The notes beneath the pieces were generated by a model. That model was not told the DNA's origin. It saw only the letters and a program-made list of their open reading frames with translations, and ran no database searches. 64,000 nt of DNA from NCBI RefSeq assembly GCF_035920345.1, contig NZ_CP109149.1, positions 2,976,001 to 3,040,000 on the forward strand, given 5' to 3'. Position 1 is the stretch's first letter. The number at the start of each line of letters is the position of its first letter. A program made the translations under genes and the position numbers. The stretch is from Nocardia vinacea (GTDB lineage Bacteria > Actinomycetota > Actinomycetes > Mycobacteriales > Mycobacteriaceae). Positions 19,570-37,107 of this stretch are shown in pieces.

Positions 19570-21345
19570 TCAGGCGGCGGCTGTGGTCCATCCGCTGGTG
19601 CTGTAGCCGATCCCGAGGACGGCGAGGCGGGCGAGGTTGTGCGCGGCGGCGAGCAGCCCGAAGTCGGCACTGATCTTGGCTTGTCCACGCAGACGAGCGC
19701 GGCGTCCGCCGTGGCGGCGGCGCATCAGGTGCCCGATTTTGCGTTCCACCTTGGGGCGGGTCGCGCGGTAGGCGGCCTTCCAGGCCGGGTTCAGCTGCCG
19801 GGCGCGGGCGGTGGCCAGGTATTTTTCGTGGGCTCCGACGGTAATCGTGCGCCCGCCGGCCGCCGTTGTGCACTGCGCGCGCAGCGGGCACCCGGTGCAG
19901 GCGGCACCGAAGTAGGCGGCGCCGGTGTGGCGGCCGGTGCGGGCCGCGATCGTCGCGGTGACTCCAGCCGGGCAGGTCACCGTGCGGTGGTCCAGGTCGA
20001 TGCTGAACCGGTCCTTGGAGAAATGCCCTTTCACCGACGGCGACGGCTGCACCTTGATCTGGTTGCCAATCCCGTTGTCGTCCAACCGTTTCAGCAACCC
20101 TCCCGCCCCGTATGCGGCATCACCGAAAACCACCACCCCACCCTCTTCGGCTTCGGCTTCGGCTTCGGCTTCGGCTTCGGCTTCGGCTTCGGCTTCGGCT
20201 TCGGCTTCGGCTTCGGCTTCGGCTTCGGCTTCGGCTTCGGCTTCGGCTTCGGCTTCGGCTTCGGCTTCGGCTTCGGCTTCGGCTTCGGCTTCGGCTTCGG
20301 CTTCGGAGGGCAGTATGTCGGCGAGCAGGCCGGTGGCGGCGTCGGCGTCGCTGCTGTTGCCGGGGGTGACAGTGGTGGCGGTGATGATCTCGCTATCGGG
20401 GTCGACGGCGATATGGCCTTTGTAGCCGTCGAATCCGCGGGCGCTGGTCTTGTGCCCGTGGCGGGTCTCGGGATCAACGGTCGAGATCACCCGGTCGGCT
20501 GCCGTGCCGCGCACGATCCGGAAGTTCCCGTCGTCATCGGTGGTGATGTCCTGGCCGAGCACGGTCGCCAGCAGTTGTGCGGCCTTGCCGACACGCTCGT
20601 CGAGATCCAGCCCGTCCAGCAGCGTCAGCATCGCCGACCCGTCACGGGCACGGGAATCGATCAACTGCTCACGAGCGGTCTCGTCGTCCCAGTCGATCAT
20701 GGGTTTCGCAGTGCCTGTGTAGTCGTCGTCGCTGGTGATCGCCGCCCGCAATGCCGCAGCCAGTTCGGCGCCGACGGCCGCGAGCAGGCCACGGATCGCC
20801 GACCGGATCAAGGTGATGGTGTCCATCGTGGCGACCGCGTCATAGAGCGGGGTCGAGTCCAGCACCCGTTTACGACCCACCAAACCAGCCTGGCGCGCCA
20901 CCTCCAGCACGGCGTCGAAGATGCGGTTGGGCCGCTGCGAGCGGGCCAGCCGGGCCCGCATGTCAACCAGCACCGTGTGCACGAATCCCGGATAGTCGAA
21001 ATCCAAGCCACCGGCGGCGTATTTCCAGCGGGCATCGAACGCGAACCGTTCCACCGCTTCCCGATCCGAGAGCCCCTCGATGCGTTGCAGCACCATCACC
21101 ACCGCCACGATCATCGGCGGCACCGAACGCCGCCCGACATCGGTGAACAGGTCGGCGAACATCTCATCCGGGAACAACTGGAAGCAATCACGGTGCAGTA
21201 CACCGTAAATCGAGCCCTCCGCCACACGACCCTCGCAGAAGTTCGCGGTCGACCGCAACAAATCCGCCTGCCTCGGCGACTGCCCCAACGTCACCCGATC
21301 ATTCTGCTCGAGCCGGGCCGTCACCGCACGAAAAACACCAGCCAC
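19570..21345 (-). CDS. IS1182-family transposase with Ala-Glu repeat
   Basis: A 591-residue frame. The N-terminus has the DUF772-like segment (FPDEMFADLFTDVGRRSVPP, then GLSDREAVERFAFDARWKYA), followed by DDE elements: VLDSTPLYDAVAT, GHKTSARGFDGYKGHIAVD and VVVFGDAAYGAGG. A zinc-like segment (CTGCPLRAQC) and KVERKIGHLMRRRHGGRRAR are at the C-terminus. Residues ~348-399 are an uninterrupted (Glu-Ala)26 run encoded by a hexanucleotide repeat, placed between the second and third DDE segments. The GTG start coincides with the first bases of the inverted repeat; an internal GTG (VTARLEQND) may be the real start. Confidence 0.88.
   Translation of the reverse strand: MAGVFRAVTARLEQNDRVTLGQSPRQADLLRSTANFCEGRVAEGSIYGVLHRDCFQLFPDEMFADLFTDVGRRSVPPMIVAVVMVLQRIEGLSDREAVERFAFDARWKYAAGGLDFDYPGFVHTVLVDMRARLARSQRPNRIFDAVLEVARQAGLVGRKRVLDSTPLYDAVATMDTITLIRSAIRGLLAAVGAELAAALRAAITSDDDYTGTAKPMIDWDDETAREQLIDSRARDGSAMLTLLDGLDLDERVGKAAQLLATVLGQDITTDDDGNFRIVRGTAADRVISTVDPETRHGHKTSARGFDGYKGHIAVDPDSEIITATTVTPGNSSDADAATGLLADILPSEAEAEAEAEAEAEAEAEAEAEAEAEAEAEAEAEAEAEAEAEAEAEAEAEAEAEEGGVVVFGDAAYGAGGLLKRLDDNGIGNQIKVQPSPSVKGHFSKDRFSIDLDHRTVTCPAGVTATIAARTGRHTGAAYFGAACTGCPLRAQCTTAAGGRTITVGAHEKYLATARARQLNPAWKAAYRATRPKVERKIGHLMRRRHGGRRARLRGQAKISADFGLLAAAHNLARLAVLGIGYSTSGWTTAAA
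20149..20304 (+). repeat. GGCTTC hexanucleotide repeat, 26 perfect copies
   Basis: Twenty-six consecutive GGCTTC units (156 bases) with no interruption, flanked by CTTC on the left and GGAGGG on the right. On the transposase strand the unit GAAGCC encodes Glu-Ala. Because the unit is two codons long, gain or loss of copies keeps the frame. The other frames read Gly-Phe, Ala-Ser and so on, which creates spurious long open frames. Confidence 0.97.
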
Positions 21346-21396: not shown

Positions 21397-21510
21397 GTGC
21401 GTAGGCATGAGTTGACTGATGAGCAGTGGCAGGTTGTGGAGTCGTTGTTGCCGCCGTCGGGCGTGAAGGAGCGTTCGCGGGTTGATGATCGGCGGGTGGT
21501 CAACGGGAAC
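21397..21510 (+). pseudogene. IS5-family transposase N-terminal scrap
   Basis: The frame reads RRHELTDEQWQVVESLLPPS and later VDDRRVVNGN, the start of IS5-type transposases. It ends abruptly at about 21510 where the minus-strand immunity-like frame begins. The GGCGCGTCCTCAATCGGTG just after the IS1182 target site may be its old terminal repeat, so the IS1182 element probably landed at the edge of this older insertion sequence. Confidence 0.65.
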
Positions 21511-21823
21511 CCTTCCGCAGGTAGCCGAAGTCCTCGTAGTACTCGATGTACTGATGCCCGCCGTCCGTCATGGACCCCACGCTGCGCAGGTCCTCCGCGA
21601 GGAGCGCTCGGCTCTCCCGGTCCCCCACCAGCAGCAGGACCCGGTGCTGCTCGACGACCTGGACGAGCAGCCGAGGACCAGCGTCCGAGCGGACTTCGAC
21701 AGCCGCGAGATCCTCGGTCTCGAACCTCCCCTCGCCCCGGGCCACCACGGCGGCCAGACCTTCGAACTCCTCCGCAGAACCGCTGACGTCGACCATGCCG
21801 TCGCTGAACTCCTCGACCCTCAT
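21500..21823 (-). CDS. Small hypothetical protein, possibly immunity-like
   Basis: A frame of 107 residues from ATG 21823: MRVEEFSDGMVDVSGSAEEF, mostly acidic, ending near HQYIEYYEDFGYLRKGSR. The closing His/Glu-Tyr-Tyr motif and the two-part beta layout recall Imm32-type immunity proteins, but the match is weak. The last residues come from the junction with the IS5 scrap, so the C-terminus may be altered. The start lies exactly where the decayed SARP gene ends. No toxin gene is adjacent. Confidence 0.4.
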   Translation of the reverse strand: MRVEEFSDGMVDVSGSAEEFEGLAAVVARGEGRFETEDLAAVEVRSDAGPRLLVQVVEQHRVLLLVGDRESRALLAEDLRSVGSMTDGGHQYIEYYEDFGYLRKGSR

Positions 21824-22611: not shown

Positions 22612-25548
22612 CTACCCGCCGGACCGGGCGCGCCAGTACTCCAGGTTGCTTCGGGTGAGCAGGGTATGCGGATGGTCGGGTCCGAGGACGCGGATCTGAT
22701 CGGCGAGCAGTGGCTCCAATTCGGTAATGGCGGCGCCGATATCACCCGCCTCGCCATAGCAGCCCGCGAGGCAATTGCGGGTGTGCAGGGTATCCGGATG
22801 ATCCGGCCCGAGAATGCGCAACTGATCCGTCCGCAGGGCGGCGTATTCGGTAATGGCCCTGGTCGTTTCACCGCTCTCCCGCCGCCAGCGCGCCATACTG
22901 ATGCGGGTGCGCAGGGTCTGGGCGTCATCAGGGCCGAGGATGCGGACCTGGTCGACGAGCAGCAGTTCGAATTCGGTGAAGGCGCGGACCAGCTCGCCCG
23001 CCATGGCGCGGGAACGCGCGAGATGCAGTCGGGTGCGCAGGGTTTGCGGGTCGACGGGACCGAGGATGCGCTCCTGATCGGCGATCAGCTGTTCGAATTC
23101 GATGACAGCGCGGCGCAGACTGCCGCGTTCACTGCGCCAGTAGGCCAGGCTGTTTCGCGCGCGCAACGTCCACGGGTGGTCGGTGCCGAGGATGCGGGCG
23201 TGATCGATGACGAGCCGTTCGAAATCCGCGACCGTCCGCTCGAGCTGGCCCATATGACCGCGCCAATCCGCGATGTCGTAGCGGGTGGTGACGGTATCGA
23301 GATCATCCGCGCCGAGTACCCGCGTCTGATCGCGGGCCAGCGCTTCCAATTCGGTGACGGCGGTGGCGAATTCGCCGCTGCGACCACGGCAGTTCGCGAG
23401 ATGGTTGCGAACCAGCAGCGTGACCCGATGATCCGGACCCATGGCGGCGGTGAAGCTCGGCAGCCAGGCCACCCACAGATCCCGATTGTCCACCACGCGT
23501 GTGGTTTCCAGCGATTCCAGGTAGCCGAAGGCGGCCGCCGCGGCGCCATAGGCCAGGTAGTGGCGCACCGCCGCACCACGGGCATAGTCGGCAACGCGTT
23601 CGGTGGTGCCCGCCTCGATGGCCGAGATCACCGCCCGGTGCGCATCCTCACTGTGCACGCCTAGACGGTCGCATTCATCGGCCAGTCCGGGGAGCAGCGC
23701 GGCATGGGCGATACCGAGCGATTCGTCGGCCGTACCGGGGCGACTGCGCGTGACCAGCACACCCAAACCCACTGTGAGATCGCGGATGCCGGCAATGCTC
23801 ACCTCGGCCCCGAGTTCACGCATCGCCGCATCCAGCAGTTCCAGCGGCAGCACCGGACCGACACCTGCCGCGACCAGCACACCGAGGACCGCGCCGATCC
23901 CCCAGGTATAGGCGACATTCGGTGCGATATCCGGTCCATCTCCCGCTGCGGCGCGGATGGCCGCGCCGACCCGCAACGCCACCAGACCGTCGACACCGAC
24001 ATCCTCGGCAACCACCCGATCGGTGACCTCGTCGGCGACCTCGGCCAGCAATCCGGCCAACAGCCAGCCCGCTGCAGCAGCAGGGGAATCGGCACGCGCC
24101 ATTGGTGTTTCGGCCAACCGCGCATCGATCCAGCCGACCCATTCCTGCTCGTCGACGGCGGCACGCTCATACCCCGCAGATTCCACAATCGCGGCGATAT
24201 CCTCGGCCACCGGCTCGGCGACGACGATCCGATGCATATGCCGCAGTTCCGAATCGTTCTCGAAGCCGAGCCCCTCCCGGATGCCCACGATCACCCGGAC
24301 GTGCGCGAGCTCCGGTCGCCGGGTCAACTCGGCGACCGCGGCCACCAGCAGTCGCTGGGTGCCCTGTTCCGGTTCGTTCAATCCGTCCACGACAATGGTG
24401 ACCCGTCGACCCCATCCGCCCAGGTCCGCCAGCGGTTGTCGCACCTCGACATCGAAAACATCGGGTGCGGTGACACTGTGCCGGGCCAGGCTCCGCGCCG
24501 CCGCGACCGCAGCACGGAAGCCGGGCAGTCGAGTGCTCAACTGCGCGGACAACTCGGCGGCGACCGCCTCGATGGAACTGCTGACGGTCAAAAATACTGC
24601 GGCCGTGATGTATTCGGGTGCGACGGGCAGGGTGTCGACCAGGCTCGGCCGGATGAGCATTGCCAGTAGTGTCGATTTGCCCACGCCGGGCGGTCCGATC
24701 ACCCCGCGCAACCGGTAGCTGCCCGATCCGACGATATCGTCGAGCGTCTCGCGCACGGCCGGGGTCAGTAGCAGTCTGCGGGTGAGTTGATCGACGAAAC
24801 CAGCTGCCGGACGGCCGGTTACGGCGTCGCGGTGACGGGCGATATTCGGCACCAGCCACAGGCCGGGATCACCGCCATCGGCCGCGGATACCGTGCCCGA
24901 GGTGAACGACAGATGTTCCGGCTGCTGCCGGGTGCACGCAGCGGCGATCGGATCGACCAGATCCGACGGCAGCAGATTCTCCCCGCGCGCGGGCAGTCCG
25001 ACCGCGAAGGTGGACAGCAGCGTTCGGGTGAAGCAGCCCGCGTAAGCGGGACCGTCACCGGCGGCGACAAGTAACTCCATCCGGCCCGCCGCCCTCGACA
25101 GCAAGTCGGTCCAGCGGCGGGCCGCACCGAGCACGCCCTGTTCGGTCTCACACGCGTCGACGAGGACCACCAACCCGTCCAGCGCCGATCGGTTCAACCG
25201 CTCCCGAATCTCCTGTGTCAGATGGAAGGCCGTATGCGAGTTCGGCACCGCGGGCGAATCGTGGCCGAGCAGAAAGAAGTCCTCCGCGCTGGTCGCGGTG
25301 CCGTGTCCGACGAATCCGATCAGCAGCGTCGCCTGCTCTCGCGCCGCCGCGTCGAAAGCCTCATCCACCGCCGTAACCAGCTGTGCAACTGTCGGATTCA
25401 GCACCGGGCCCGGCACCTCCGTCGCCGCCCGCCAGCCGCCGGATCCGGTCAATGTCCCATACAGACCCGTCGCCAACTCATCGGTGAACCCCAGTTCCCC
25501 CAGTGCCTCGCACTCGGACCCGACTACCAGGGCGAGCCTTCCTCCCAT
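22612..25548 (-). CDS. Caspase-like protease / STAND NTPase / TPR protein
   Basis: ATG 25548 (MGGRLALVVGSECEALGELG) gives 978 residues; the frame is open further upstream but without domain content. Residues ~1-200 are a caspase-like (C14/CHAT-type) domain with the His in LLIGFVGHG (His82) and Cys in VVLVDACE (Cys133). Residues ~270-480 are a STAND-type NTPase: Walker A GPPGVGKST (285-293) and Walker B TIVVDGLNE (384-392). Residues ~700-978 hold six and a half 42-residue TPR-like repeats with consensus A(I)LGPDHPxTLxTRxxLAxWRG. This layout (protease, switch ATPase, repeat sensor) is that of prokaryotic death effectors. It diverges from a serine hydrolase gene across 156 bases. Confidence 0.85.
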   Translation of the reverse strand: MGGRLALVVGSECEALGELGFTDELATGLYGTLTGSGGWRAATEVPGPVLNPTVAQLVTAVDEAFDAAAREQATLLIGFVGHGTATSAEDFFLLGHDSPAVPNSHTAFHLTQEIRERLNRSALDGLVVLVDACETEQGVLGAARRWTDLLSRAAGRMELLVAAGDGPAYAGCFTRTLLSTFAVGLPARGENLLPSDLVDPIAAACTRQQPEHLSFTSGTVSAADGGDPGLWLVPNIARHRDAVTGRPAAGFVDQLTRRLLLTPAVRETLDDIVGSGSYRLRGVIGPPGVGKSTLLAMLIRPSLVDTLPVAPEYITAAVFLTVSSSIEAVAAELSAQLSTRLPGFRAAVAAARSLARHSVTAPDVFDVEVRQPLADLGGWGRRVTIVVDGLNEPEQGTQRLLVAAVAELTRRPELAHVRVIVGIREGLGFENDSELRHMHRIVVAEPVAEDIAAIVESAGYERAAVDEQEWVGWIDARLAETPMARADSPAAAAGWLLAGLLAEVADEVTDRVVAEDVGVDGLVALRVGAAIRAAAGDGPDIAPNVAYTWGIGAVLGVLVAAGVGPVLPLELLDAAMRELGAEVSIAGIRDLTVGLGVLVTRSRPGTADESLGIAHAALLPGLADECDRLGVHSEDAHRAVISAIEAGTTERVADYARGAAVRHYLAYGAAAAAFGYLESLETTRVVDNRDLWVAWLPSFTAAMGPDHRVTLLVRNHLANCRGRSGEFATAVTELEALARDQTRVLGADDLDTVTTRYDIADWRGHMGQLERTVADFERLVIDHARILGTDHPWTLRARNSLAYWRSERGSLRRAVIEFEQLIADQERILGPVDPQTLRTRLHLARSRAMAGELVRAFTEFELLLVDQVRILGPDDAQTLRTRISMARWRRESGETTRAITEYAALRTDQLRILGPDHPDTLHTRNCLAGCYGEAGDIGAAITELEPLLADQIRVLGPDHPHTLLTRSNLEYWRARSGG

Positions 25549-25704
25549 TTCAGCACCACCGTTCCCACCGTCGACTCCCCGACGACCCTCGACACCCCGA
25601 CACGGGGCCGTAGCGACTGCTTGCAGGTCGCTCGAAAAGGTCGGCCCTGCGTGGTAGGAAGGTACCCGAAGGCACATCGGGGCAAATGACAACGGGGGCG
25701 GCTG

Positions 25705-26625
25705 ATGGCGGCGATAGTGCTGGCGCACGGGATCGCACAGGAGCAGTACGGTGCGGATCTACTGGAAGCGCAATGGCTTCCGGCGCTGGCGGCTGGTGTC
25801 CGTACGGCCGGCTACGGCGAACTCGCGGATCAGCTGTGGCGCGGCCAACGCCCGGGCATGCTCGAGGTTCGAATGGCGTTCTACGGCAATGCCTTTCTCG
25901 ATCCCGGCGCTCAAGGCGGCGGCGGACCGGTCGGTACCGAGGATGCCGAACTCACCGAGCAGATCGCCGAGGCGTGGTTGGCGACGGCGGCCGAGCAGGC
26001 GGCCGATCAACGCGATCGGCTGGAAGCGCAACGCTACCTGGACAATTCCGCGCTCGGCACCGAGGGCGCACAGGGTTTCGGCCGCAAGGCCAGACCTGCG
26101 GCGAATGCGCTGACCAAGCTGAAGTGGTTCGCGCCCTTCGGTTTCGGGATGGCGGGCAAATTCGTCAACCGGTCACTGGCCCAGGTCAGCAGATATCTGG
26201 CCGAAGATGCGGTGCGTGCCTACGCGCAGCAACAGGTGCTCGACCTGATCGGTCCGGAGACCCGGCTCGTCATCGGACATTCGCTCGGCTCGGTGGTCGC
26301 CTATGAGGCACTGCATCGGACCGATCAGCCCGCGGCGCTGGTCACCCTGGGTTCGCCGCTGGCGTTGCAGTCCATCATCTACCCGCTGCTGCGCCCGCAG
26401 CCGCCCACGGTGCCCGCCGCGCTCACCCGCTGGGAGAATTTGGCCGATCGTGACGATATCGTCGCGGCGCATCTGGATCTGGCGCCCTATTTCCCGCCTG
26501 CACCGGGACGCGATGTGGTGCCGACGACCCATCCCGAACTCGACAATGGCTCCAGTCCGCACGATGCCACGCACTATCTCACCAAGAAGTCGGTCGGGCG
26601 CATCATCGCCGAGTCCCTCTCGTAA
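25705..26625 (+). CDS. Alpha/beta hydrolase (PGAP1/lipase-like)
   Basis: A protein of 306 residues beginning MAAIVLAHGIAQEQYGADLL. The N-terminal AHG is the oxyanion-hole region, the nucleophile is Ser193 in VIGHSLGSVV, acid candidates are Asp248/250/251 in NLADRDDIV and the histidine is His290 in HDATHYLTKK. There is no signal peptide, so it acts in the cytosol, possibly on membrane lipid. Hydrolases of this type occur as effectors beside STAND NTPases with caspase domains. Divergent pairing with the caspase-STAND gene is the main clue to function. A helical insert (~100-180) before the nucleophile elbow is not recognised. Confidence 0.8.
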   Translation: MAAIVLAHGIAQEQYGADLLEAQWLPALAAGVRTAGYGELADQLWRGQRPGMLEVRMAFYGNAFLDPGAQGGGGPVGTEDAELTEQIAEAWLATAAEQAADQRDRLEAQRYLDNSALGTEGAQGFGRKARPAANALTKLKWFAPFGFGMAGKFVNRSLAQVSRYLAEDAVRAYAQQQVLDLIGPETRLVIGHSLGSVVAYEALHRTDQPAALVTLGSPLALQSIIYPLLRPQPPTVPAALTRWENLADRDDIVAAHLDLAPYFPPAPGRDVVPTTHPELDNGSSPHDATHYLTKKSVGRIIAESLS

Positions 26626-26690
26626 CCGGAGCTATTCCGAATCGCGCGTACGCTGACAGCTCTGGCACCGAGTGCGAGGAGTTCACCGCG

Positions 26691-26924
26691 ATGACCGACC
26701 CCGTGCAAGGTTTGACGGGTACGCTCACCTCGCCGATCCGGGGCCCCGGAATGCTCGGCGAAGTATTGGTTGCGATTCGTGGGGGCACGGAGATATATAT
26801 CGCGCGGGCGGCCGAGCCGATCTCGGCCGGCGAAACCGTCCTGATCATCGCGGTACAGCCGGGCCGCATCGTCGATGTGGTGCCGTGGATTCCGCTCGAA
26901 CCCGTCCCGGTCGACGATATCTGA
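26691..26924 (+). CDS. NfeD-like OB-fold protein without membrane segment
   Basis: ATG 26691 follows GCGAGGAG and gives 77 residues. The sequence GLTGTLTSPIRGPGMLGEVL, then ISAGETVLIIAVQPGRIVDV fits the soluble C-terminal OB domain of NfeD proteins (G-x-A/L-x-x-P/I-x-P-x-G then G-x-x-V-x-V), here without transmembrane helices. NfeD proteins partner with flotillins, and the flotillin gene begins 37 bases later, so the two are very probably functionally linked. It lies 65 bases after the hydrolase gene. Confidence 0.7.
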   Translation: MTDPVQGLTGTLTSPIRGPGMLGEVLVAIRGGTEIYIARAAEPISAGETVLIIAVQPGRIVDVVPWIPLEPVPVDDI

Positions 26925-26961
26925 CACCGCGACCGAAGTTATGAACTGCTAGGGAGGCACA

Positions 26962-28062
26962 GTGCTGGGTTATCACGTTCCGGATCCTGACGAGGCGATG
27001 CTGGTCAGCGGCGGTACGAGCAAGGACAACGCGCCCTTCGGCGTCGTCATCGGACGAGGCAAGTGGGTGATGCCGTTCTTCCGCAAGGTGAGCTATCTGT
27101 CGCTGGCCATGTTCGAGGCCGAGATCAAGGAACGCTGCGTCACCAAGCAGGCCATCCAGCTCGAGGTGCGGGCAGTGATCGCGTTCAAGGTCGCCAACGA
27201 CACCCAGTCGATCGTCAATGCGGCCCAACGCTTTCTGTCCGAACAGGAGCGGGAGATGTCGGTGCTGACCGGACGCATCTTCTCCGGACACCTGCGCTCG
27301 ATCGTCGGCTCGATGACGGTCGAGGAGATCATCCGCGAACGCCAGCGGCTGGCCGACGAGGTACTGGTGGCCTCCAAGGTGGAGATGGGCAATATCGGCC
27401 TGTGGGTGGATTCGTTCCAAATCCAATCCATCGATGACGGCAATCTGGGGTACATCACCGCACTGGCCGCACCGCACAACGCGGCCGTGCAGCGCGATGC
27501 GCAGATCGCGCAATCACAGGCCGCGCAGCGTGCCGCCGAGGCTGAACAGGAATCGCTGCGCCGCCGAGCCGAATATCAGCGTGAGACCGCTATTCTCCAG
27601 GCGCAGTATCAGCAGGATATCGATAAGGCCAATGCCGAAGCGGCACAGGCCGGTCCGCTGGCCGAGGCCAAGGCGATGCAGGAGGTGCTCACCGCGCAGG
27701 CCGAACAGGCACGCAAAGAGGCCGAGTTGCGTGAGCAGCAGTTGCAGGCCGAAGTCGTGAAACCCGCTCGGGCCGAAGCGGAACGGGTACGCATCCTCGC
27801 CGAGGCCGAGGCCGATCGGACCCGGATCCAGGCCGACGCGGCGGCCTCGAACAACCGGATCGCCTTGGACCAGTTGCTGATCGAGCAGCTGCCGGAAATC
27901 GTCAAGCAGGCCTCCAACGGCCTGGCGAACGCCAACCTGACGGTGCTCAACGGACCCGATGGAGTCGGCGAATTGGTCAACGGAATGGTCGGTCAGGGCC
28001 TCACTGTATTCAACTCGTTACAAAAGGCGCTTTCATCCAACGACGGGGATAATGCGAGCTAA
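26962..28062 (+). CDS. SPFH-domain flotillin-like protein
   Basis: GTG 26962 is five bases after AGGGAGG; 366 residues. The SPFH domain occupies ~1-185 (FGVVIGRGKWVMPFFRKVSY, ERCVTKQAIQLEVRAVIAF, LSEQEREMSVLTGRIFSGHL). A long charged Ala/Glu/Gln coiled coil follows (~180-300) with repeated EAKAMQ and EAEADRTRIQ-like heptads, then a flotillin-like tail. Unlike classical flotillins there is no obvious N-terminal membrane anchor. Such proteins assemble membrane microdomain scaffolds. Close spacing after the NfeD-like gene and the hydrolase supports one transcription unit. Confidence 0.88.
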   Translation: MLGYHVPDPDEAMLVSGGTSKDNAPFGVVIGRGKWVMPFFRKVSYLSLAMFEAEIKERCVTKQAIQLEVRAVIAFKVANDTQSIVNAAQRFLSEQEREMSVLTGRIFSGHLRSIVGSMTVEEIIRERQRLADEVLVASKVEMGNIGLWVDSFQIQSIDDGNLGYITALAAPHNAAVQRDAQIAQSQAAQRAAEAEQESLRRRAEYQRETAILQAQYQQDIDKANAEAAQAGPLAEAKAMQEVLTAQAEQARKEAELREQQLQAEVVKPARAEAERVRILAEAEADRTRIQADAAASNNRIALDQLLIEQLPEIVKQASNGLANANLTVLNGPDGVGELVNGMVGQGLTVFNSLQKALSSNDGDNAS

Positions 28063-34494: not shown

Positions 34495-37107
34495 GTGGCG
34501 CTGATGACGGGGATTCAGCCCGGGGTGCAGGGCCTACAATCGTATGGTATGGATGTCAGGCGCCGGGAAGGTGTAGGCAGCCTACCCGCTGTTACCTACA
34601 GCTTTATCGGTCGAGACCGCGAGCTGGAGAAGATCAGTACCCTACTGCTGGGCCCAGCCCGGTTGATCACCCTCACCGGCCCCGGTGGCATCGGGAAGAC
34701 TCGTCTGGCCGTCGAAGCGTTGCGCCGTTGCGGTAAAACCGAAGCCAGGAAAACACGAGCGTGCTGGGTGCGATTGGCTCGACTGACTCCGGATTCGGAT
34801 TCGACCGCGGTCGCGGAAGAAGTCGCCCATGCAGTGATCGAGGCGGATTTCTCCGGGCGATCGGCCTGGGACGCCTTGGTCGACACCCTCACCCCAACCG
34901 ACACCACCGGACGTGCCACGCACACCGTGCTGGTGCTCGACAACTGCGAGCACGTACTCTCCGGTGTCGGGCCCCTGATCGCCGACCTCATCGAGACGGT
35001 ACCGGGGCTGAGCATCGTGGCCACCAGCCGAGAACCCATCGGCTGGCTCGACGAACACCTGATCACCGTTCCGCCGCTATCGCAGCGCGAGGCCCTGGCC
35101 CTATTTCGGCAACGCGCCGAACTCACCGAACATCCCGTCACCGGCAAAGACCAGACCACCACCGCCGCCGAGATCTGCCACCACGTCCACAACCATCCCC
35201 TCTACATCCAGTTGGCCGCCGCACGCCTGCTTCGCCAACCGTTGGCCGCGATTCTGCACGGGCTCACCGGCCACGCTGATGACACTCGACTGAGTTGGTC
35301 GCATGGCCCCCGCGTGGGCGCCGACCCGCGCCATCGAGGAGTCGTCGACGTCATCTCCTGGTCCTACGAGCTGTGCAGCGACAAGGAACGTCTGCTCTTC
35401 GACCGCCTGTCGGTGTTCGCCGCCGGCTACGACACCAATCCCGACGACACCACAGAGGCTGCACCGGATGTGGGTGCCGAACTGGACGCCATCGAGACAA
35501 TCTGCTGCGACGACGAAACCAGCGATACCCAAGTGCCCCTGACCCGGCAGGAGATCGAGGGCCTGCTCGAGCGGCTTGTCGATCAATCGTTGGTCACGAC
35601 GCACAGGACGGCGACCACGGTGCGGTATTCACTAGTGGAGAGCCTGCGGGTATTCGCCCAGCAGCGACTGCGCCAGCGCTCCACCGCCGCGGTGGACGAA
35701 CCCACTCGCTTGGCCCAGCGGCACTGCCGCTACTACCACGACAGGATCGCCTACGCCGCAGCCAACTGGTTCGATCCCGAAGGGCAAGCCCTGGTGGACT
35801 GGGCCCGGACGGTCTGGGCCAACACCCTCACCGCGATAGAAACCAGCATCACCACCCCGGGCCGAGCCGGAGACGGTCTGGAGATCTGTCTCGGGCTGAT
35901 CACACTGCAGGTGTGCTTCACCAGCGGCTCCGTACGAGAAATACGCCAATGGACCCTACGCTGCCTCGACGCCACCCGGGCAGCAACCCCGCAACCCATC
36001 GAACTCCAGATCGGGGCCATGGCCACCATCGCATGGCTCGCCACGCTCCAAGGCACCCACGAGGATGCCGAACAGCTGCTCGATGACTGCGTTTCCGCCT
36101 GCATCCCCGACCCAGACATCAGGCGGAACTGGCGAGACACCGCCGAGACCGACATCGGGCTGCCCGCTCCAGTCGAATTCGCATGGGGTGCGGAGCTCAT
36201 ATTCGCGCGCCGTGACGCCCGCGCCATCACCGTCCTGAGCCGAGCCAGAGATAAATTCGAGGCCTACGGCGACCACGGCGCCGCCTCAATGAACGAGCTG
36301 TTCGCTGCCCTGGCCGCGGGCATGCTGGGAACCGCGCTGCAAGCCCACGAGATCACTCAGCGTTACCTCGAGCGCGCGACCATTTCCGGAATTCCATGGG
36401 AAAGGGCTTGCGCCGACCTCGCCAGGGCGGCAGCCCTGACCCTACACGGCAACCCCACCGATGCACTGGCTCTCGAACGATCCTCGCTGGCGTATCACCT
36501 CGCCACCAACGAGCAATGGGCCGCGGTGTGGTTGGTGCAATACCGCACCTGGTCATTGGCGCACATCATCACCAACTCGATCGTGGCCGGAAAACCCGAC
36601 CGCAAGAAACTGATTGCCCTGGCCACCGAAATCGCCCACTTGGCCGGCGGCACCACAACCCTACGAGCCAAGCTCGGCATCGACTTCAAGGCGTCTGGTC
36701 CCCTCTTCGACGAATCCGAAAAAGCTATCGCTGTCGCCCGCCAGGTACTGGGGCCCGACGCCTTCGCTGCGGCAGAAACCCGAGGCATGCGTCTGCGTCC
36801 GGAACGAAACGAAGTGCAACGGCTGGCACTGGGCACACTGACCATCGATACTGCAGCGGACGCGGCCGCCACATCGCACTGGTACGAATTGACCCGGACC
36901 GAACAACAGGTCGCGATCCTGGCCGCGGCCGGGTGGACCAACATCGACATTGCCTTTCGCCGTGGAAAGTCGTCCCGCACTGTCGACGCCCAAATCGCGG
37001 CGATTTTCCATAAACTGGCCATCACTTCACGTGCGGACATATCCGAGCACATCCCCAGTGGATTCACCGACCAGGTCCGAGGTGAAGCTGCCCGACGACC
37101 GCGCTGA
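34495..37107 (+). CDS. Large ATPase-type LuxR-family regulator
   Basis: GTG 34495 gives 870 residues; ATG 34549 is an alternative that would be nearly leaderless after a TACAAT box at 34536. Residues 61-70 are the Walker A TGPGGIGKTR, TVLVLDNCEHV is Walker B, VATSREPIGW follows as in AfsR/MalT-like STAND ATPases, and NHPLYIQLAAARL closes the ATPase. A long helical repeat region (~400-780) precedes a C-terminal LuxR-type helix-turn-helix (~796-850: LTRTEQQVAILAAAGWTNID, then SSRTVDAQIAAIFHKL). The ligand and targets are unknown. Genes of this type are frequent in actinomycetes. Confidence 0.87.
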   Translation: MALMTGIQPGVQGLQSYGMDVRRREGVGSLPAVTYSFIGRDRELEKISTLLLGPARLITLTGPGGIGKTRLAVEALRRCGKTEARKTRACWVRLARLTPDSDSTAVAEEVAHAVIEADFSGRSAWDALVDTLTPTDTTGRATHTVLVLDNCEHVLSGVGPLIADLIETVPGLSIVATSREPIGWLDEHLITVPPLSQREALALFRQRAELTEHPVTGKDQTTTAAEICHHVHNHPLYIQLAAARLLRQPLAAILHGLTGHADDTRLSWSHGPRVGADPRHRGVVDVISWSYELCSDKERLLFDRLSVFAAGYDTNPDDTTEAAPDVGAELDAIETICCDDETSDTQVPLTRQEIEGLLERLVDQSLVTTHRTATTVRYSLVESLRVFAQQRLRQRSTAAVDEPTRLAQRHCRYYHDRIAYAAANWFDPEGQALVDWARTVWANTLTAIETSITTPGRAGDGLEICLGLITLQVCFTSGSVREIRQWTLRCLDATRAATPQPIELQIGAMATIAWLATLQGTHEDAEQLLDDCVSACIPDPDIRRNWRDTAETDIGLPAPVEFAWGAELIFARRDARAITVLSRARDKFEAYGDHGAASMNELFAALAAGMLGTALQAHEITQRYLERATISGIPWERACADLARAAALTLHGNPTDALALERSSLAYHLATNEQWAAVWLVQYRTWSLAHIITNSIVAGKPDRKKLIALATEIAHLAGGTTTLRAKLGIDFKASGPLFDESEKAIAVARQVLGPDAFAAAETRGMRLRPERNEVQRLALGTLTIDTAADAAATSHWYELTRTEQQVAILAAAGWTNIDIAFRRGKSSRTVDAQIAAIFHKLAITSRADISEHIPSGFTDQVRGEAARRPR

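Follow-up and report, generated by a model that had tools for sequence, protein, structure and literature searches.

Which genes act together with a caspase-like protein of Nocardia vinacea, and what might they do? The question is raised by a window of 64,000 nucleotides (G000 C1:2976001-3040000, G000 being the own genome) on a single contig of 10.36 Mb, where the gene of a caspase-STAND-TPR protein lies divergent to that of an alpha/beta-hydrolase, with genes for an NfeD-like and a flotillin-like protein beyond. The first-pass annotation had read all four genes as a candidate conflict system, composed of a TPR/STAND sensor and switch, protease and lipase effectors, and membrane targeting by the flotillin. 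The locus itself was confirmed, with motifs and numbering in agreement. A conflict-type system of the caspase-STAND-TPR protein, as sensor, switch, and protease, with the hydrolase as its partner is supported by the present analysis, while the membrane-scaffold role of the flotillin and NfeD-like proteins is not. Across Nocardia genomes, the partnership of the caspase and hydrolase genes is near-obligate. The features of the locus, in window positions, are as follows.

22612..25548, minus strand: caspase-STAND-TPR protein, 978 amino acids, ATG at 25548
24844..25548, minus strand: caspase (C14/paracaspase-like) domain, residues 1-235
23479..24828, minus strand: STAND NTPase region, residues 241-690, from Pfam matches and motifs
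22612..23478, minus strand: array of TPR-like repeats, with seven anchors at intervals of 42 residues, from TPR_12/TPR_10 matches and spacing
25549..25704, no strand: divergent intergenic region, 156 bp
25705..26625, plus strand: alpha/beta-hydrolase, 306 amino acids, Ser193-Asp251-His286
25909..25917, plus strand: hydrolase loop 1 AQG, residues 69-71, candidate gate or cleavage site
26068..26076, plus strand: hydrolase loop 2 AQG, residues 122-124, candidate gate or cleavage site
26691..26924, plus strand: NfeD-like OB protein, 77 amino acids, a core neighbor judged to be outside the system
26962..28062, plus strand: SPFH/flotillin-like protein, 366 amino acids, a core neighbor judged to be outside the system

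Co-occurrence of the caspase and hydrolase genes in Nocardia

The co-occurrence of the two genes was analyzed in 150 Nocardia genomes, where a hydrolase was considered close at an identity of at least 55%. A caspase domain was found in 41 genomes and a close hydrolase in 40, all of them among the 41. None of the 109 caspase-less genomes contained a close hydrolase, and 10 of them carried just distant hydrolases (identity of at most 43%); any hydrolase match was found in 50 of the 150 genomes. The two genes were adjacent in 12 of the 40 genomes and, as far as the contigs show, apart in 28, so linkage does not explain their co-occurrence. The adjacent pair was of the window type in seven genomes (G000, G167, G009, G072, G151, G149, and G034), and an adjacent divergent pair was located elsewhere in another five (G113, G135, G075, G094, and G029).

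An rpoB tree was constructed from 90 of the 150 genomes, namely every positive genome in which rpoB was matched in full (27 of 41) and the 63 of the 109 negatives that had been fetched. On this tree, the caspase changed at least 10 times and the hydrolase 9 times, and among eight independent contrasts, seven agreed, none opposed, and one showed no difference (p 0.016). The sporadic carriers among the negatives (G029, G113, G094, and G135) have the two genes side by side, as would be anticipated if they were transferred together. The genes flanking the divergent pair of G075 were, by eye, the same as those around the lone hydrolase in six mapped genomes that carry the two genes in trans. Hence, the lone hydrolase probably stayed after a loss of the local caspase, and caspases at other sites of the genome were retained.

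Up to six caspase copies were found per genome. The own genome encodes five caspases of the window-caspase family, two of which have an adjacent divergent hydrolase, namely the window pair and a second pair (L083, C1:10187383-10191348). The caspase-STAND-TPR gene of this second pair includes about ten repeats of 126 bp that are 77% matching (L083 6869-8157, C1:10186868-10188156). Two neighboring repeats match up to 93%, which marks this array, in contrast to that of the window gene, as one that has turned over recently.

Pairing beyond Nocardia

The best named relatives of both the window caspase and the window hydrolase are from Nocardia. The pairing was surveyed in the 80 best named hydrolase loci, with a caspase neighbor defined as an open reading frame (ORF) in the flank that matched the caspase profile. 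Such a neighbor was present in 54 loci. The divergent arrangement emphasized by the first-pass annotation was conserved, as 31 of these 54 pairs were divergent, seven were convergent, and the codirectional remainder had either the hydrolase first (11 loci) or the caspase first (five loci). The 26 loci without a caspase neighbor included 19 from Nocardia, two from Yinghuangia, one each from Streptomyces (SID3343), Lamprocystis, and Pseudomonas, and two contig ends (L329 and L363).

The pairing was also analyzed in 394 genomes sampled from the class. Among the hydrolase rows above 130 bits, 14 of 17 had a caspase-profile neighbor at E<=1e-8, three of these 14 coming from genomes used in building the profiles (G000 twice, and G048). 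The remaining three were a fused protein of the own genome (L086, described below), G413 with a neighbor of 29 bits, and G478, where the large neighboring protein gave no match with the caspase profile. Below 130 bits, the rows of G517 and G049 were surveyed, and both had a caspase-profile neighbor (40 and 33 bits). Five of the six caspase-profile rows of at least 100 bits outside the own genome had an adjacent hydrolase row, G272 being the one without. The partner proteins scanned with Pfam differed in architecture: one included STAND and TPR domains (L266), five included WD40 repeats (L084, L267, L268, L271, and L279), one had weaker propeller matches (L269), and no propeller was matched in L272, L273, and L278.

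Domains of the caspase-STAND-TPR protein

The N-terminal domain has the fold of the caspase superfamily (peptidase C14, clan CD) and the features of a MALT1-like caspase. The His82 and Cys133 dyad named in the first-pass annotation does align with C14 enzymes, at the GHG and DSC of yeast metacaspase-1, and both residues were invariant in alignments of 11 and of 62 sequences. When candidate autocleavage sites were sought within the caspase chain, the best internal [Q/M]G column was at residue 137, with 24 of 62 rows. The Pfam family PF00656 matched a single site elsewhere in the own genome and not the window caspase; this missing match was not taken as evidence. The EACC1-associated caspases (NCBIfam NF047832) showed a weak sequence likeness only, with 38.2 bits over residues 18-202, far under the cut-off of 140, and the FxSxx-COOH TPR protein family (NF040586) matched the TPR part only, with 133.8 bits against a cut-off of 300; the protein was assigned to neither family.

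In the STAND region, Pfam matches were obtained to NPHP3_N (30 bits) and AAA_16 (26 bits, under its cut-off), and a Walker A motif starting at residue 285 is followed by a Walker B-like motif at residue 386. The combination of a P-loop NTPase carrying both motifs with C-terminal repeats identifies a STAND/NLR-like protein. Between orthologues of the locus from different lineages, the identity was about 44-49% in the main segments of the TPR part, 57-61% in the STAND region, 73-80% in the caspase domain, and 91-93% in the flotillin. The TPR part evolves the fastest, as might be expected of a sensor in conflict. TPR repeats at the same position were often not mutual best matches between two lineages, which hints at repeat turnover only, and the window array was not detected by Tandem Repeats Finder.

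The hydrolase and its twin loops

The partner protein has an alpha/beta-hydrolase fold and the Ser193-Asp251-His286 triad. Two stretches of the protein, residues 71-80 and 121-130, were variable in sequence and length and were poorly predicted, with a mean predicted local distance difference test score (pLDDT) of 56 and 48, respectively. Each is associated with a conserved dipeptide in an alignment of 64 rows. At residues 70-71, Q (62 rows) or M (two rows) is followed by G in all 64, while at residues 123-124, Q (56 rows) or M (eight rows) is followed by G in 63. The flanking loop positions had an average entropy of 2.4 and 2.6 bits; the value for the whole protein was 1.24.

Both sites were present in every divergent (31/31) and convergent (7/7) named locus, the convergent ones including proteobacterial and acidobacterial records, and in 20 of the 26 loci without a caspase neighbor, 18 of those from Nocardia. 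The two Yinghuangia hydrolases were without both sites and the Streptomyces hydrolase was without the second, with the triad kept in all three. The best caspase-profile matches in these three genomes reached 43, 66, and 46 bits, while in seven genomes with both sites in their hydrolases the values were 151-365 bits. The presence of the twin loop sites thus goes with a close caspase. In searches with the hydrolase, no match was found among phage sequences, and 36 plasmid records were matched, every one below 60% identity.

Twin processing sites would predict the pattern seen here: one dipeptide, with one and the same Q-to-M swap, recurs in two separate variable loops and is incomplete in hydrolases that keep the triad but have no close caspase. 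These observations argue against an alternative in which the caspase and hydrolase cooperate and the hydrolase is not a zymogen: the two would be parallel effectors, or the target of the hydrolase would be a signal or the caspase itself, and the QG loops would serve in substrate binding, in docking, or as the hinge of a lid. We consider this alternative possible, if not favored, since loop conservation is by itself no proof of cleavage, and since Kaur et al. (2020; PMC7159879), in the passages dealing with such pairs, infer a joint operation and leave its mechanism unstated. It also draws support from the codirectional pairs, of which only 2 of 16 had both sites and 14 lacked the twin sites though paired with a caspase. 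Most of these 14 are long proteins, many of them rich in WD dipeptides. In codirectional hydrolases such as L353, L354, L357, L359, and L363-L365, loop 1 appeared by eye to be without Q/M-G and often had a G-x-R nearby, and loop 2 was short and often basic. From sequence, a different cut preference of the caspases in codirectional pairs is possible.

A proposed mechanism

The layout of the hydrolase resembles that of the pro-nuclease of canu (CanABC), an antiphage system and the closest precedent that has been tested. There, the pro-nuclease is activated by the MALT1-like CanA, and two disordered insertions carrying conserved glycines are presumed to gate its active site, both being required; the canu authors suggest that gated proenzymes may exist beyond nucleases (PMC12799240). 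Based on this resemblance, we propose that the two genes form an NLR/apoptosome-like system, with a TPR sensor, a STAND switch, a caspase protease, and a caspase-gated hydrolase, a model to which we would give an even chance. The TPR array would sense a trigger, such as a product of a phage or another invader, the STAND NTPase would oligomerize the protein, and crowding would activate the N-terminal caspase. The caspase would then cut the separately encoded hydrolase at its two flexible loops, each with the conserved [Q/M]-G dipeptide. The opened, esterase/lipase-like hydrolase may attack lipids or acylated substrates, by which the infected cell would be stopped or killed. The cleavage, the zymogen state or gating, the substrate, and the role in phage defense are what we infer for the pair. 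In a further and more tentative proposal, the hydrolase would be a widespread lipase that a caspase activates by cutting at two Q/M-G gates, and a single hydrolase, encoded at a separate locus in many Nocardia, would be the shared executioner for up to six sensors.

Besides the codirectional loci, several observations weigh against this model. Asp131, two residues ahead of the catalytic Cys, is common to metacaspases and MALT1. Both of these cleave after basic residues, a preference that counts against the proposed Q/M-G site. Within the stretch of the caspase's own sequence after the Cys (130-150), a [Q/M]G was found in only 28 of 62 relatives. Q70 is located at the edge of the weak stretch, in a block with a mean pLDDT of 78, and the low block (56) begins only from G71. 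The three orphan hydrolases of Yinghuangia and Streptomyces look like close relatives, so that they would count as roughly a single evolutionary event, and the loop sites may have been absent from them all along. Regarding the pairing, G160 was the sole genome with a caspase and no close hydrolase, and at loose thresholds in the class sample a caspase-profile match was found in 81 genomes, a hydrolase match in 55, and both in only 28, such that more distant relatives are not strictly paired. Additionally, the PADLOC-DB 2.0.0 profiles gave just two matches (E 0.045 and 0.08), both over the P-loop and neither convincing, and no known defense genes were found among 10 neighboring proteins scanned, apart from one sub-threshold immunity-protein match.

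The same machinery could also serve regulated lysis, developmental cell death, or envelope-stress control instead of phage defense. LypABC provides an example of CARD-NLR-like machinery that serves host lysis for gene transfer agents in the account given in PMC13236601. Such a role is nonetheless unlikely, as the patchy distribution (9-10 changes on the tree), the up to six copies per genome, and the fast-evolving TPR part fit a role in conflict better.

The flotillin and NfeD-like neighbors

The NfeD-like protein matched PF01957 with 17.1 bits, under the cut-off. An indication that it and the flotillin could form a scaffold that brings the caspase and hydrolase to a membrane microdomain is the constancy of the layout. 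The caspase was divergent to NfeD in nine of nine loci of a first sample of same-genus genomes and in all 30 best caspase loci (L095-L124), with short spacing; the hydrolase was between the two in six of the 30 and not in 24. However, one vertically inherited insertion beside core genes explains this layout better than a recruited scaffold. Flotillin matches were found in 32 of the 36 genomes of the first sample, compared with 10 of 36 for the caspase domain, and both NfeD and flotillin were present in all 20 regions fetched, eight with and 12 without a caspase. In G018 and G029 the site was empty, with the NfeD gene directly adjoining a TetR-like gene (cluster c11, labeled by eye), while in G005, G007, G023, G026, and G034 the caspase was found between these two genes, in G034 together with the hydrolase.

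In one locus (L112, genome G109), the caspase was intact beside the NfeD-like gene and the flotillin was reduced to a remnant match of 32 residues. The four-gene linkage suggested by the first-pass annotation was rare among the named loci: the window NfeD or flotillin was matched in the flanks of only three of the 80 named hydrolase loci, all from Nocardia (E<=1e-5), and 51 of the 54 named caspase-hydrolase loci had no match to either. Paralogous caspases of the same genome are also located elsewhere. The two proteins were therefore rejected as parts of the system on their distribution and judged to be core neighbors of the insertion point, and a four-gene system appears very improbable.

Relationship to known systems

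The locus shares with canu a MALT1-like caspase and a similar two-loop layout, the latter on a different enzyme. The partner is an alpha/beta-hydrolase, whereas that of canu is described as an MBL-fold nuclease (PMC12799240), and no MBL domain was found among the 10 neighboring proteins scanned. The caspase is also fused to a STAND NTPase and TPRs, and an Ig-like domain was not recognized by Pfam in the window protein.

Caspase proteins with alpha/beta-hydrolase neighbors have been published for the VMAP MoxR-vWA ternary systems, also in Actinobacteria (Kaur et al., 2020; PMC7159879). The locus resembles these in the caspase-domain protein with a neighboring hydrolase gene and differs from those described there in the fusion of the caspase to STAND-TPR. 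No MoxR or vWA domain was found in the 10 neighbors scanned or in the other window proteins searched. Elsewhere in the own genome, a hydrolase domain of the window family forms the end of a large ATPase-TPR protein (L086 3496-9673, C1:9950495-9956672). The gene of this protein lies just downstream of one for a MoxR-like AAA protein, so that within a single genome the hydrolase family is tied to conflict systems of the MoxR type.

Antiviral STAND proteins and bacterial NLRs (Avs and bNACHT, as named in PMC10907252) similarly have an N-terminal effector, a central STAND, and a C-terminal TPR-type sensor. The effector here differs, being a caspase with a partner hydrolase, and no PADLOC family was convincingly matched. 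Metacaspase-NACHT-WD40 architectures, listed in 2012, also fuse a caspase homologue to a STAND NTPase and sensor repeats; an alpha/beta-hydrolase partner is not mentioned for them in the portion of that study considered here (Asplund-Samuelsson, 2012; PMC3501461). The association of caspase and alpha/beta-hydrolase is thus already published. In the open-licence literature without preprints, no description was found of a two-gene unit of caspase-STAND-TPR protein and hydrolase, of the retention of this unit in trans, or of the twin [Q/M]-G loops, though an earlier description is possible.

Other features of the window

The 156-bp intergenic region was aligned with six other genomes, where conservation was slight beyond close relatives and no clear shared operator was found. 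An Rfam scan of window positions 17-33 kb returned no match. Beyond the flotillin, the window encodes a cold-shock protein, an ATP-dependent DNA ligase, and a LigD primase-polymerase. A small ORF (21500-21823) between a transposase and the caspase gene matched the Imm32 immunity protein with 23 bits, the cut-off being 27. The DDE transposase ORF (19570-21324, minus strand) contains 27 perfect copies of the hexamer CTTCGG (20145-20306), which encode a long (Ala-Glu)n run; the perfect array suggests a recent expansion. A second STAND-like protein, 9 kb away (34549-37107), combines AAA_16 with a LuxR-type HTH at its end and is probably a transcription regulator.

Implications

If the model is true, lipid-type hydrolases would join the short list of bacterial gated proenzymes released by an immune protease. 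The published association of caspases and alpha/beta-hydrolases becomes a falsifiable prediction, in which a small enzyme has two cut sites at specified residues. The shared-executioner reading would provide a bacterial counterpart of the way in which initiator caspases feed a single executor and, if true, a natural hub design in Nocardia, where several NLR-like sensors and one executor would be open to genetic testing.

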